From the NCBI GenBank assembly GCA_963681505.1, contig OY811974.1:3459271-3523270 (forward strand): DNA of 64,000 nucleotides. Direction: 5' to 3'. Below, piece after piece: positions 4,905 through 57,289 of the stretch. The translations under genes were made by a program, and so were the position numbers. The DNA comes from Eunapius fragilis. Lineage: Eukaryota; Porifera; Demospongiae; Spongillida; Spongillidae. The notes beneath the pieces are model-generated. The model was given only the letters and a program-made list of their open reading frames with translations. It did not search any database and was not told where the DNA came from. Within the stretch, counting starts at the first letter, position 1, and the number at the start of each line of letters is the position of its first letter.

Positions 4905-5850
4905 TTGCTCTATGTGCATGTTTCCTCGTAGCACCCCATAGTACATGTAAGACCACATGGTGGGCTATAGCTATATGCCTCCTTCCTGTGTGCATAACAC
5001 ATATGGTATATACCATATGTGTTATGCACACAGAAAGGAGGCAGGCTTGCTGTGGTTTTATTACAGCTACAAGTTGTATAAAAAGTTGACACAGAAGAAC
5101 CTTTTCACATGCCTTGCAGCTATAGACAGCTAGACATTACATTACATGTACACACATGCATGGGAAGGAGGCAGGCCTATTTTGAAAAGCACTTTGGACC
5201 TGTAGAGAACTGATATATGGATTGAATTGTGGGTTAAGTATAACATATGATTGTGTGAACTCATATGCCTCTTTTCTGGGTGAGGGTACTCCAAGGTCAC
5301 AGCTGCAACCCTAATTGGCCATTTGATAAATCTTGTAAAGCATAAATTACAATGATGTACTTGAGAACACAGGGATGTTCAGGTTTGCAGCCATAGAGAT
5401 GTTAAGACCACATGCTGGGACACTATGCATGGAAAGTAAGTTATAGTCCTGCAAAGCATAAATCGCTTATCCAAATTGAAACTGTAGCTCTTTTAAAAAA
5501 GAGCTGCATGTAATAGGTAACTGGTTCCAGCTGAAAACAGGAGAACATCATGGAGGATCAAATGGTGGTCCATGTGCATGTTTTAGCAGCCATAGAAGCT
5601 ATGACAAGGTTTTAACCACACACCATGCCACCATATATGGGATGCAGGAATGGGCAGGCTTGTGGTTTTATGGATGCAGAGTTGCAAGATAAATGTTGAC
5701 ACAGAGAAACTTGTTCACATGCCATGCAGCTGTAGATAGCAATATATTGACATGCATATAAACACATACATGGGAAGGAGGCAGGCCTATTTTTAAGAGC
5801 AGATTTGTATAGAGAACAGCAACTGATATAAGGATTGGATCGTTTTCCTA
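4905..5850. repeat. Direct duplication of a ~250-bp block
   Basis: The stretch around 5097-5225 recurs at about 5700-5840, in both cases with CACATGCC(T/A)TGCAGCT followed by GGGAAGGAGGCAGGCCTAT and ACTGATATA. The preceding parts (4915-4960 and 5575-5630) also resemble each other. The copies have diverged by substitutions and small indels. No coding signal was found. Confidence 0.6.
4976..5043. repeat. 34-bp arm perfect-centre palindrome
   Basis: A spacer-free palindrome centred between 5009 and 5010, with 34-base arms and a single mismatch. Its core is ATATGGTATATACCATAT. It lies inside the first copy of the duplicated block and is absent from the second, so it may be a tiny foldback insertion. 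Confidence 0.8.
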
Positions 5851-6023
5851 TCTGCATGTAACTCTCAGACGACTCGCAAGAACACACGCACACAATACAA
5901 TATATCAGTCCCTTGAGTGTAGGACATATTGCACCCAAACATTGCGAACACTTCTACCTCATAGGATTTCTTTTCCTGCGGCTGATTATGCTTGAAAGAT
6001 ATCCCAAGGAAAAAAATCTTGCA

Positions 6024-6185
6024 AGTTCTGGCATGATTCATGCATGATTTTCGAACCAATCCGTACTCTACCCGTAATCTTTCATGTGCGATGCAAGATG
6101 TTGCATGATCATGCATGATTGTCCGAAAATCATGCATGATTCTTGCAAGATTTAGCATGATTCTTTGCAAGATGGCATGCAAGAT
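6024..6185. repeat. Cluster of GCATGATT / TGCAAGAT words
   Basis: The words GCATGATT, CATGCATGAT and GCAAGAT recur about a dozen times in 160 bases without a fixed period. The cluster overlaps the 3' end of the minus-strand ORF at 6130-6501 and may encode its degenerate tail. Confidence 0.5.
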
Positions 6186-10545: not shown

Positions 10546-10781
10546 TGCGCCTATCATTGTTACTTGAGACACCCCCCCCCCCCCCCCCCCCCCCCCGGGG
10601 CATTGGGAGGGATTTGACCTTTCTTAAAGCAAACTGCCCCTAGTTGGGGGTTAATAACCGGTCAAATGTCTATACTACGTGGTCTGATAAAAGGTCGAAC
10701 GCGTGCCGACTATGATCAAATGTGTGACCAGTAATGATATTCACGCGCCAAATCCCTACCTAATCCCGACTTCGCCCCATG

Positions 10782-10820
<39 letters not shown>

Positions 10821-10836
10821 CTCACGTATCAATGCA
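10546..10836. mobile_element. PIF/Harbinger-type MITE, copy 1
   Basis: The left end TGCGCCTATCATTGTTAC and a shortened right end (GTCTCACGTATCAATGCA) are flanked by TAA on both sides (10543-10545, 10837-10839). Just inside the ends lie a run of about 25 C and a run of about 37 G. The interior closely matches the MITE at 56112-56365, including TTTGACC, a TAATAAC(C/T)GGTCAA block and ACTACGTGGTCTGATAAAAG. A 3-bp TWA duplication is the Harbinger signature. No ORF. Confidence 0.8.
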
Positions 10837-53327: not shown

Positions 53328-53749
53328 TACTGTAATGAGTGTGAGATTAATGCGGTTTGCCTCGTGCCTCGTGTCGACCACACGGCTACCACCACCACAG
53401 CGATAGAATAGCCCCGCTTCTTCTTTGAGAGCCACTGACTGCGTAGCACAAACTCATTCCAAAGCCAGTTGGAAGAATTGCAAATACATCTCTGCCTTCA
53501 ACAACACATCCAGTTGTTCTGGCTTCATAAAAGGGTAGCCCAACTCCTTAGCTACCTCGGTAACGTAGTCGCTAACTATACTTGTCTGCCCGAACGCCAT
53601 ATAAGCGGTTAAATGGAAAAGCCTATGATTATCTCACATCAACCGCTAATTGGGTGATAACGAACCCACTTGAATGCTGTAATCTGATTGGACTGCAAAC
53701 CCAGAACAGCTTGCAATCCGACTACCCGTAGTCGGGCCACCCCCGATTA

Positions 53750-53897: not shown

Positions 53898-54598
53898 TGC
53901 ACCTATCAATGGTAACTGCAACCCCCCCCCCCCCCCCCCCCCCCAATCCGGGACATATGGGGGATTTGACATTTATTAAATCAAATGCCCCACTGTTGGG
54001 GACTAATAACTGGTCAAATGACCCCTCCTCGACCCAGTCCCGTTACATGTTTGATACCTTTTATGACCAATGGTTTCGTTCCTGCTATTCAGAACGAACG
54101 CGCGTTAGCCTTTGTAGGTATACAGCTGATATTGTGCCGCTATAAGAGTTGTAGTTATAATTGTACTAGTAGTTTGGTAAAGCGCATGTTCTTGTTTCCG
54201 GTGAGGTACAGGCTAGGTATGATGTTGCGTACCTACCGTGAATGTGCCAAGGTCGTCACAAGTTTTGAGCTGCAAAACACGCCGATATTACACAACCAAA
54301 AATTTAAACATTGTTACAGGATGTAAGCACCGAACGGTATTGGGACGGTCCTGTTTTCGGGACCGTGCCAATACCGTTCGGTGCTTACATCTTGTAACAA
54401 TGTTTAAATTTTTGGTTGTGTAGGGTGAGGTCACAAGCTGTTATACGATTAAAATTCATTCTCGCGGTCGAGGTCAAATCCCCGCGTACGGTCAAATGCG
54501 CACCCTCAATAATCTGATTAGCCGGTCAAATCCCCCACTAATCCCCTATATGTCCCGGATGGGGGGGGGGGGGGTTGCAGTTACCATTGATAGGTGCA
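53898..54598. mobile_element. PIF/Harbinger-type MITE, 701-bp copy
   Basis: The ends TGCACCTATCAATGGTAACT and AGTTACCATTGATAGGTGCA are perfect inverses and are flanked by TTA on both sides (53895-53897, 54599-54601). The inner arms hold C and G runs and TATGTCCC/GGGACATA blocks. It carries a nested palindrome (54289-54422). Same family as 10546 and 56112, but a longer branch. Confidence 0.85.
54289..54422. repeat. 134-bp nested foldback in the MITE
   Basis: Arms from TACACAACCAAAAATTTAAA inward to ACGGTCC pair almost perfectly around TGTTTTCGG. TA at both edges hints at a separate TA-targeting insertion. Confidence 0.75.
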
Positions 54599-55105: not shown

Positions 55106-55256
55106 CTAGTACACAGCCAATTTTTTACAACCTGTAAGGCATGATATCACCATGAATATGATCATATCATACCTGACACATACTCTGTTGGGAAATCGAA
55201 CTGATACAGGTTGTAAAAAATTGTTCTGTGTACATTGGGGTCTGGGTACGAGACTA
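55106..55256. mobile_element. Truncated TAGTCTCGTACC-family MITE
   Basis: The right end GGTCTGGGTACGAGACTA matches the family of 55443 and 57164. The arms ACACAG, AATTTTTTACAACCTGT and their inverse pair as a hairpin, but the outermost ~25 bases of the left arm are missing. ATGCTA occurs at both borders, a possible remnant of the target duplication. Confidence 0.5.
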
Positions 55257-55605
55257 ATGCTAAGTTCTCTGTCTTCACCACCATGGTCCCTACCCCTTCA
55301 TGACGCGAAATCAATTAAGAGGAAGAGAGATAAGTATGCCCGCTTTGGAAATCTTCTCTCTCCATAGACAATCCTTCGGAGTTCCTCACTCCCTAGCGGG
55401 AATCAGAAGGGAAAAGACAGTCGCCAACATAGGCGTCCGCTCTAGTCTCGTACCCAGACCCACGCCACAGCAGCGGGTGGATTACATCACCGCTACGTGG
55501 AAGTAGGGTCTGGAGAATCTCTCGGCAAAATCGTGGCCAGTGGAATGTAAGGATTGATATTAATTCATACCACTGTCACGCGCTGCGGGTGACTAGGCAA
55601 TTAAG

Positions 55606-55980
55606 ATGGCTTCATTGTGCGTTATGTGTGGCTTTCAGTCGGTGCCGAAGCAGAGAAGGTTATTGCACAGCACCTCTACAATTTACGTATTACCCTTGCC
55701 GAGGCGACTAACGCACGATAGAATGGACGTCGATATCGATGTACCTTCCAGTGTGCTTTGTATAAGATGTTTTAGGTTGCTTGATAAATGCATCAAATTG
55801 AAGCGCGAACTAGATTTGGCGGAGCAAGAAGCAGCAGCTTGTGTTAAAGTGATGTCTGATACATATACAGCTCCTTCTGTCTCCTCTGAGGTTCATACTC
55901 CAGTGCAAAGAAAGAGGTCATCTGATAATCGTGGTGACCTAGTGGGTAATCAATTGTCACCTGCAGTGTCGGTAAAATGA
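55606..55980 (+). CDS. ZAD-like zinc-finger ORF of the helicase element
   Basis: The 124-residue ORF starts 62 bases inside the left inverted repeat. CVMC near the N-terminus and CIRC at about residues 52-55, followed by a helix-forming FRLLDKCIKLKRELDLAEQE, give the C-x2-C...C-x2-C-helix pattern of a ZAD-like zinc-binding domain. The Ser/Arg-rich tail (VQRKRSSDNRG) probably runs into deleted sequence: the stop at 55978-55980 lies at the junction with the helicase exons, so the true C-terminus may be missing. A DNA-binding or dimerisation role is inferred. It is intact as an ORF. Confidence 0.5.
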   Translation: MASLCVMCGFQSVPKQRRLLHSTSTIYVLPLPRRLTHDRMDVDIDVPSSVLCIRCFRLLDKCIKLKRELDLAEQEAAACVKVMSDTYTAPSVSSEVHTPVQRKRSSDNRGDLVGNQLSPAVSVK

Positions 55981-56001
55981 GTGGGATAACCGTTCCGCTA
56001 C

Positions 56002-56715
56002 CCTGTCTAGTAGAAGGGCATCGCTGTTTGCGTCTCCTGCATACACTGCTGTAGCATCTCTCCTTGTTAGTGCTTCGATCTGGTCCTTCATTAACGCGTG
56101 CAAGGGACTAATGCGCCTATCATTGTTACGTGAGACCCGCCCCCCCCCTCCCCCCCCGGGGCATTAGGAGGGATTTGACCTTTATTAAAGCAAACTGCCC
56201 CTGGTTGGGGGTTAATAACTGGTCAATTGTTTACACTACGTGGTCTGATAAAAGGTCAAACGCGTGCCCGACTACGGTCAAATGTGTGGCCAGTTATGAT
56301 TTCACGCGTCAAATCCCCGACTTCGCCCCAGGGGAGGGGGGTCTCACGTAACAATGATAGGTGCATAACAACGATGACTACTGACCCATCGGTTCTTCCC
56401 GCTCGTCTGTCGAACAGTGTAGGCAGGATCCAAACAAACTGATCATGAAAACAAGTTTGCTTGTCCCCAGTGTTTAGGGGGGCCAAGGTCTAATCGAATC
56501 TGGCGACCATGCGGCAACCTACGCAGCAGATATCTGCAGAAGGACTTCCCGCTTCCAGTTGGTAAAGAAACGAAGACATCACAACCACTCACAAAGGCTT
56601 CAATAGCTGCTCGCTGGTCAGGAGTTACACACTGAAAGCCAAGCTTGATTGCAGCGTAGGTGATCTCGTCTGAATCCACGATTACGAACGCGTGACTGTC
56701 ACGCGAAAAATTCAA
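56002..56715 (-). pseudogene. RecQ-like helicase fragment (motifs I and Ia)
   Basis: The first exon starts at ATG 56715, just inside the right inverted repeat. It carries LGFQCVTPDQRAAIEAFVSG (Q-motif region) and FVSLPTGSGKS (Walker A), up to about 56545. A second block begins after a CAG acceptor at 56438 with WILPTLFDRRAGRTDGSVV, is interrupted by the MITE at 56112-56365, and resumes in the same frame with SPLHALMKDQIEAL, helicase motif Ia, then AVYAGDANSDALLLDR, to a possible donor at 56001. The DEAH box and everything downstream are absent. The intron border after exon 1 is not clean. RecQ-family helicases unwind DNA 3' to 5'; this fragment cannot. Confidence 0.65.
56112..56365. mobile_element. 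PIF/Harbinger-type MITE inside the helicase exon
   Basis: The ends TGCGCCTATCATTGTTAC and GTAACAATGATAGGTGCA are flanked by TAA (56109-56111, 56366-56368). The interior matches the copy at 10546 over most of its length. The C and G tracts next to the ends are shorter and interrupted here. Confidence 0.85.
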
Positions 56716-57163
56716 TTAAAATCACTAATTGCGCATGCTCGCAATCCGATTGGAACGTTCAGATTCGAACGCCACTGGCCACGATTTTGCCGAGAGATTC
56801 TCCAGACCCTACTTCCACGTAGCGGTGATGTAATCCACCCGCTGCTGTGGCGTGGGTCTGGGTACGAGACTACGTCCGCTCAGAGTTATCCAGGGGGAGG
56901 GGGGGGGGGGGGGGGGGGGGGGGGGCAAAACCAAACCAGGGGGAAGGTGCGGGAGGGGGATGTGCCCCCTCCCGCGCGAAGCGCGAAAGCTTTCAGTGTT
57001 ATTCAGTTTTATAAGTATCGATCATGCTGTTATATCAATGAATATTAATTAGTTTGGGTATGCCAGGGGGGGGGGGGGCAAATGCCCCCCCCTTGCCCCA
57101 ATGAGCGGACGCCTATGTCGCCAAGTTTGTGATCTCGCCGGGAGCTGGCTGGAGGGCTGGAGG

Positions 57164-57261
57164 TAGTCTCGTACCCAGATCCACGCTTACGTAAGCATTA
57201 TCGCATATAGTATACATTATGCGATAATGCTTACGTAAAGGTGGGTCTGGGTACGAGACTA
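57164..57261. mobile_element. 98-bp fully palindromic MITE, 9-bp TSD
   Basis: Starts TAGTCTCGTACCCAGATCCA and ends with the inverse, TGGGTCTGGGTACGAGACTA. The centre GCATTATCGCATA is palindromic too. GGCTGGAGG flanks both ends (57155-57163, 57262-57270). It shares its terminal 16 bases with the helicase element and is probably mobilised by the same enzyme. Confidence 0.85.
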
Positions 57262-57289
57262 GGCTGGAGGCCTAGAAATTTTTTGTCAC

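Follow-up and report, generated by a model that had tools for sequence, protein, structure and literature searches.

A probable AcademH-type deletion derivative in the sponge Eunapius fragilis and its relatives with DUF6589 and RecQ-type helicase genes

We analysed a window of 64,000 nucleotides of Eunapius fragilis (the whole stretch of DNA, contig OY811974.1) within a genome of 219 Mb in 24 contigs. With a probability of roughly 85%, a 1430-bp element in this window is a non-autonomous deletion derivative of a cut-and-paste AcademH-type transposon, with DUF6589 as its transposase and a RecQ-type helicase as its second gene. The element fits a known, little-studied transposon lineage and not a new kind of system. 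New here are the assignment of DUF6589, an uncharacterised Pfam family that can be tied to a transposase role via its genomic setting, and TIR-only palindromes of 100-124 bp, whose junctions differ from one another.

Structure of the nested insertion

The region is built up as follows (positions are those of the window).

55239-55256, minus strand: solitary exact copy of the terminal motif, some 190 bp upstream of the element and adjoining a short inverted repeat
55421-55427: left TSD of the outer MITE, TCGCCAA
55428-57117: outer MITE with its insert (251 bp without it)
55428-55442: left 15 bp of the outer MITE, CATAGGCGTCCGCTC
55434-55442: left 9-bp TSD of the 1430-bp element, equal to the last 9 bp of the outer MITE's left part
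55443-56872: probable non-autonomous AcademH-type element, 1430 bp, termini TAGTCTCG...CGAGACTA
55443-55543, plus strand: left TIR of the 1430-bp element, 101 bp
55606-55980, plus strand: CxxC...CxxC zinc-finger frame, ending within a presumed former intron
55989-55993: internal-deletion junction, with about 4.35 kb gone relative to L016:1238-5592
55993-56111, minus strand: RecQ-type helicase fragment (SPLHALMKDQ region), truncated by the inner MITE
56112-56365: inner Harbinger-type MITE, 254 bp, with TSD TAA at 56109-56111 and 56366-56368
56434-56535: 102-bp segment missing from L016, breaking the helicase frame right after the GKS motif
56536-56715, minus strand: N-terminal RecQ-type helicase fragment with Walker A motif LPTGSGKS
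56772-56872, minus strand: right TIR of the 1430-bp element, 101 bp
56873-56881: right 9-bp TSD of the 1430-bp element, CGTCCGCTC
56882-57117: right part of the outer MITE, ending GAGCGGACGCCTATG
57118-57124: right TSD of the outer MITE, TCGCCAA
57164-57261: near-palindrome of 98 bp (57155-57270 with its TSDs), 9-bp TSD GGCTGGAGG on both sides

The two ends of the 1430-bp element are complementary at 101/101 TIR positions and the perfect 9-bp TSD CGTCCGCTC is found on both flanks, precisely as the preliminary description had reported. Its proposal that the element splits a 251-bp MITE (TSD TCGCCAA) also holds: boundaries and TSDs were verified, and the MITE has other copies in the genome. In three of these the alignment begins at the first or third base of the right-hand 9-bp repeat and extends through the last MITE base, which is consistent with their being unsplit.

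PIF/Harbinger MITEs are recognised by a 3-bp TAA/TTA TSD plus TIRs. The inner MITE shows TSD TAA and 36-bp inverted arms (92% complementary), and its boundaries are covered by alignments at about 20 other genomic places. That it is a 254-bp Harbinger-type insertion, as first described, is supported by its site in 20 loci examined: filled in 5 (L001-L005), empty in 13 (GGGACTAACAACG) and not found in 2. The idea of three stacked insertions had to be abandoned. In L002-L005 the TAA-flanked MITE sits at the identical site, yet these copies have four different 9-bp TSDs, so the MITE was already in the element before the insertion into the window. The MITE entered an ancestral element and the loaded element then moved as a unit, which makes two insertions here, not three.

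Five other copies (L006, L007, L014, L017 and L025) carry the inner-MITE family about 40 bp away in opposite orientation, with the first site empty. This was an independent insertion, and two insertions in one small segment may point to a preferred target. Further pieces of this TAA-flanked family are located at window positions 10546-10834 and 53898-54020.

Comparison with L016, a long member of this family, shows that the window copy derives from a longer form by internal deletion: it aligns at L016:704-1238 and 5592-6063 (the latter in three pieces) with 95.8-98.3% identity. Most likely it produces no useful protein. The deletion, the 102-bp segment and the MITE all break up its helicase, and the element would be moved in trans by the DUF6589 protein of a long copy. 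The minus strand at window positions 53440-53508 holds another RecQ-like Walker A fragment (VFAILPTGFGMSLCYA), probably left over from a different helicase gene or element.

Recent movement had been argued from the identical TIRs. This is fair for the window copy, which is 98.2-99.1% identical to its four nearest copies (L002-L005), but identical 101-bp TIRs are not universal (7/16 copies measured). A truncated regulatory zinc-finger protein under selection, an idea prompted by the seemingly intact ORF of derivatives, was considered and rejected: 14 copies of the ORF hold 18 non-synonymous against 7 synonymous distinct substitutions where 2.87:1 is expected, so no constraint was detected (p = 0.82, with little power). 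This test left aside L002, L019 and L024 (indels) and L023 (missed by the motif search).

Target site duplications and coding content of longer copies

TSDs were tabulated for 37 two-ended copies, comprising the window element and its relatives, the sister element L070, the long copies L087/L088 and the palindromes. A 9-bp TSD is exact in 30/37 and has one mismatch in 4 more (34/37 altogether). With one mismatch permitted, no copy shows a TSD of 8 or 10 bp (0/37); a 4-bp TSD is exact in 0/37 and present with one mismatch in 1/37. The 9-bp sequences themselves varied, and three copies (L006, L023 and L075) have no TSD. Four copies (L015, L017, L021 and L022) had several ends, from which one pair was picked, so that a bias toward matches is possible. 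L016 was scored apart from the table, and eight loci that had fewer than two ends or whose ends were not analysed were left out (L008, L012, L013, L026, L027, L082, L083 and L085). Other lengths would have spoken against the family as first described, and the table agrees with that description.

That the TIR and its contents belong to some larger non-mobile repeat, another possibility that had been raised at the outset, or to a segmental duplication is scarcely credible. L028/L081 are indeed located in duplicated segments and L017/L073 share duplicated right flanks, so the number of independent TSD sites is at most 35. In the other copies, however, differing 9-bp duplications end exactly at the TIRs, except for the three copies without TSD and for L004 and L018, which both have TGTGTGTGT flanks (compatible with other odd lengths too).

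The preliminary description had advised looking for longer copies with a transposase between the two ORFs. Longer copies exist: L016 and L087/L088 carry DUF6589, the putative transposase, between the zinc-finger frame and the helicase. L016 has the same 127-codon zinc-finger frame as the window copy (zf-AD-like, E 0.078, below the Pfam cut-off), placed upstream and on the same strand of a 479-codon frame that matches DUF6589 (E 3.9e-36). On the opposite strand, and convergent to these two, are DEAD, Helicase_C and RecQ_Zn_bind frames, the very arrangement of zinc-finger ORF and RecQ-like helicase that had been proposed for the family. Because of this frame order and strand, the zinc-finger frame might well be the first exon of the DUF6589 protein, joined to it by splicing. 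The ends of L016 were completed with L071 and give the TSD TGGATTATT/TGGATTATA (8/9 identical). Its right TIR is split by about 5 kb of other DNA, after which the TIR resumes and ends at C1:3464071. The interrupting DNA extends from L016:6063 to G000:C1 ~3464000, has the ends (C)AGAGATAA...TTATCTCT(G) and is accompanied by a 7-8-bp duplication, CTACTTC(C).

L087 and L088 are two copies of a sister family (5301 bp, 99.76% identical) with 104-bp TIRs, TAGTCTCG termini and perfect 9-bp TSDs (CCCCACGAA and AGGCAGCAC). In L087 we find DUF6589 (E 2.4e-36), with DEAD and Helicase_C on the opposite strand and RecQ_Zn_bind just below the cut-off; the best solved-structure matches of its C-terminal helicase frame are to the RecQ family (1oyw, which we take to be E. 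coli RecQ, 4tmu RecQ, RECQ5 and WRN). For the question why some cut-and-paste transposons carry helicases, these near-identical 5.3-kb helicase-bearing copies are a natural place to begin. The same frame order is kept in a diverged relative, L069, which has lost its left end and has its helicase frames opposite DUF6589.

Pfam scans covered the listed frames of at least 90 aa (10/10 in L016, 14/14 in L087 and 9/18 in L069). Beyond the families named, the frames of L016 and L087 yielded no family above the cut-off except ResIII, overlapping DEAD in L087. Neither a MULE domain nor an XPG-type nuclease was matched in the scanned frames of the three copies.

A 3605-bp copy in L009 at first resembled an autonomous element encoding a new transposase of its own, but this reading was rejected: its middle is a separate nested element of 2531 bp (L009:5503-8032), copies of which, up to 100% identical, occur elsewhere at many of the 20 loci fetched. 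The exon pieces of this nested element (CESYNGAIRSRN motif) have at least 150 scored genomic matches and gave no Pfam family at a meaningful E-value. Set against 127 of the 150 helicase matches, its transposase matches formed 5 pairs within 10 kb (1.7 expected).

For DUF6589 we obtained at least 116 genomic matches (102 of 215 candidates scored), grouped as at least 90 loci; 14 control genomes yielded none. A RecQ match (among 150 scored helicase matches) lies within 5 kb of at least 23 of the 90 loci, against 0.6 pairs expected, and 22/23 of these close pairs are convergent. In the remaining pair an additional DUF6589 piece adjoins a helicase match that already had a partner. Among the listed matches, 67/90 DUF6589 loci and 128/150 helicase matches have no partner within 5 kb; the helicase list takes in short derivatives without DUF6589, and many unpaired loci are expected if fragments and deletion derivatives predominate.

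These observations also bear on the suggestion of a gene-capturing Mutator-like element, which would have picked up its zinc-finger and helicase pieces as exons of host genes. Mutator-like elements (MULE) typically have long TIRs and a 9-bp TSD, and the element resembles them in its 101-bp TIRs and 9-bp TSD. Nonetheless, we consider this origin very unlikely: the two pieces are the two ends of one repeated DUF6589 and RecQ arrangement seen in the long copies and convergent in nearly all close pairs, and the element differs from MULE in these genes and in lacking the MULE domain in the scanned frames.

Returning to DUF6589 as transposase, its conserved acidic positions are of interest. In 16 loci (including the query L016) the D of (G/A)GD and the E of EH(L/V)N are both conserved in 16/16, and the D of GDN (VDN in one locus) in 12/12 loci whose match covers the position; of the remaining four, two matches begin downstream and two loci have no match there. 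In the C-terminal block of 13 sequences, D74, E78 and H79 are among the invariant positions. As a sequence pattern, the three acidic positions would look like a DDE triad. The C-terminal profile against PDB sequences gave two haemoglobin matches at E ~0.7, which are not meaningful, and in viral contigs 33 pattern matches led to 0 confirmed. The Pfam entry for DUF6589 is without transposase annotation. Since our search found no published mention of DUF6589 (the sole text match to PF20231 being a nanophotonics paper), its assignment as a likely DDE transposase is put forward from its genomic setting in this genome.

TIR-only palindromes and a possible route to them

The 98-bp near-palindrome close to the window element had been described as its relative with a TSD of its own. 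The 9-bp TSD was confirmed; kinship to the window family was not, as the match is limited to the outer ~23 bp. Its 49-bp arm instead matches the L087 TIR at 38/49 positions without gaps, so it appears to be a TIR-only derivative of an L087-like family. For the interior, the local score against the L087 TIR is reached by 0/1000 shuffles, against 886/1000 for the window-family TIR.

Twelve elements of 100-124 bp (L028, L072-L081 and L084) are made up of the two TIRs of the window family, left and right, fused with hardly any or no sequence between them (L028 is counted by its identity to L081), and 11/12 show a 9-bp TSD when one mismatch is tolerated. Junctions were measured in 11 of them, L081 being omitted as a repeat of L028. 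Ten retain 48-66 bp of each 101-bp TIR and L075 retains 32 bp on the left. At 8 of the 11 junctions the TIRs overlap by 2-8 bp (one mismatch allowed), at 1 they abut and at 2 there is filler of 5 or 12 bp.

Long copy, 1.4-kb derivative and TIR-only palindrome form a series of steps by which very short non-autonomous elements come into being, and the series includes one pair at a duplicated insertion site. L017 (1429 bp) and L073 (114 bp) have ~600 bp of right flank in common (96%) and are both flanked by TGAGCCCTC, the left copy in L017 differing at one base. They are likely to represent one duplicated insertion, of which one copy was reduced in place to its TIRs. Beyond the TSD the left flanks of the two are unlike, since in L017 the TSD is directly adjoined by the end of another element; in view of this mismatch, shrinkage in place is likely, not proven.

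Within the window the 18-bp terminal motif is present 5 times when up to 3 mismatches are allowed, and 0 times in 100 shuffles. In its exact form (TAGTCTCGTMCCCAGACC, one ambiguous base) it has 2368 genomic occurrences, against 0 for a reversed control. Some of the first 100 listed positions on G000:C1 form opposed pairs spanning ~100-160 bp, several of exactly 133, which suggests a separate amplified very short family.

A possible mechanism can be outlined from the order of the parts. In its long form the element would read TIR, zinc-finger exon and DUF6589 protein (with introns, rightward), RecQ-type helicase (leftward), TIR. DUF6589 protein supplied in trans by other copies might bind the TIRs and excise the element, which would then be joined into a 9-bp-staggered cut, gap filling giving rise to the 9-bp TSD. 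The helicase could aid the opening of ends, or gap processing and copying of the element during repair. Interrupted gap repair might then produce internal deletions that leave a 1.4-kb derivative or, at the extreme, a palindrome in which each TIR keeps its outer 48-66 bp.

One may go further and regard DUF6589 as the DDE transposase of a RecQ-bearing lineage that is maybe separate from Academ and shrinks in place by microhomology-guided deletion, possibly helicase-aided, to near-perfect palindromes with 48-66-bp arms, near the minimum transposable unit. As a whole this extended proposal is unlikely.

Comparison with known transposon systems

Assignment of the window element to AcademH, the helicase lineage of the Academ superfamily, rests on its composition and TSD length. 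According to part of a paper on IS481EU (PMC10045372), AcademH has TSDs of 9 or 10 bp and AcademX of 3 or 4 bp; the title of Kojima 2020, as cited there, places AcademH in animals and fungi. A RecQ helicase in Academ is reported in a section of a paper on Fanzor (PMC3627910). At the level of these descriptions, our copies agree with AcademH in having a helicase beside the putative transposase DUF6589 (L016, L069 and L087) and a 9-bp TSD (none of 10 bp). As both features examined (helicase and 9-10-bp TSD) are found here, we file the element as AcademH-type. The guess of a helicase-bearing Academ was thus a fitting one, and the accompanying view that the element matches nothing that can be named no longer applies.

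RecQ helicases are recorded in Kolobok too, both in fungal KolobokH and in Kolobok-1_CCri, where the helicase lies on the complementary strand (in the part of PMC9587614 consulted), which indicates that helicase capture recurs. These are likewise DDD/E transposons with a RecQ helicase, and together with the silence of the literature found on DUF6589 they lend something to the thought that the present elements are a RecQ-bearing DDE superfamily of their own, with DUF6589 unrelated to the Academ transposase and the AcademH likeness convergent. Given that both AcademH features examined are present, we hold this to be unlikely. Kolobok itself differs in its TTAA-specific 4-bp TSD, against varied 9-bp TSDs here.

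AcademX carries an XPG-type nuclease. The lack of one in the scanned frames of L016, L087 and L069 is a further likeness to AcademH. With AcademX the elements would share one superfamily by name, but differ from it in TSD length (3-4 bp, as given in the same part of PMC10045372, against 9 bp here). Overall, the composition and TSDs of the window element and its long relatives place it most probably with AcademH.
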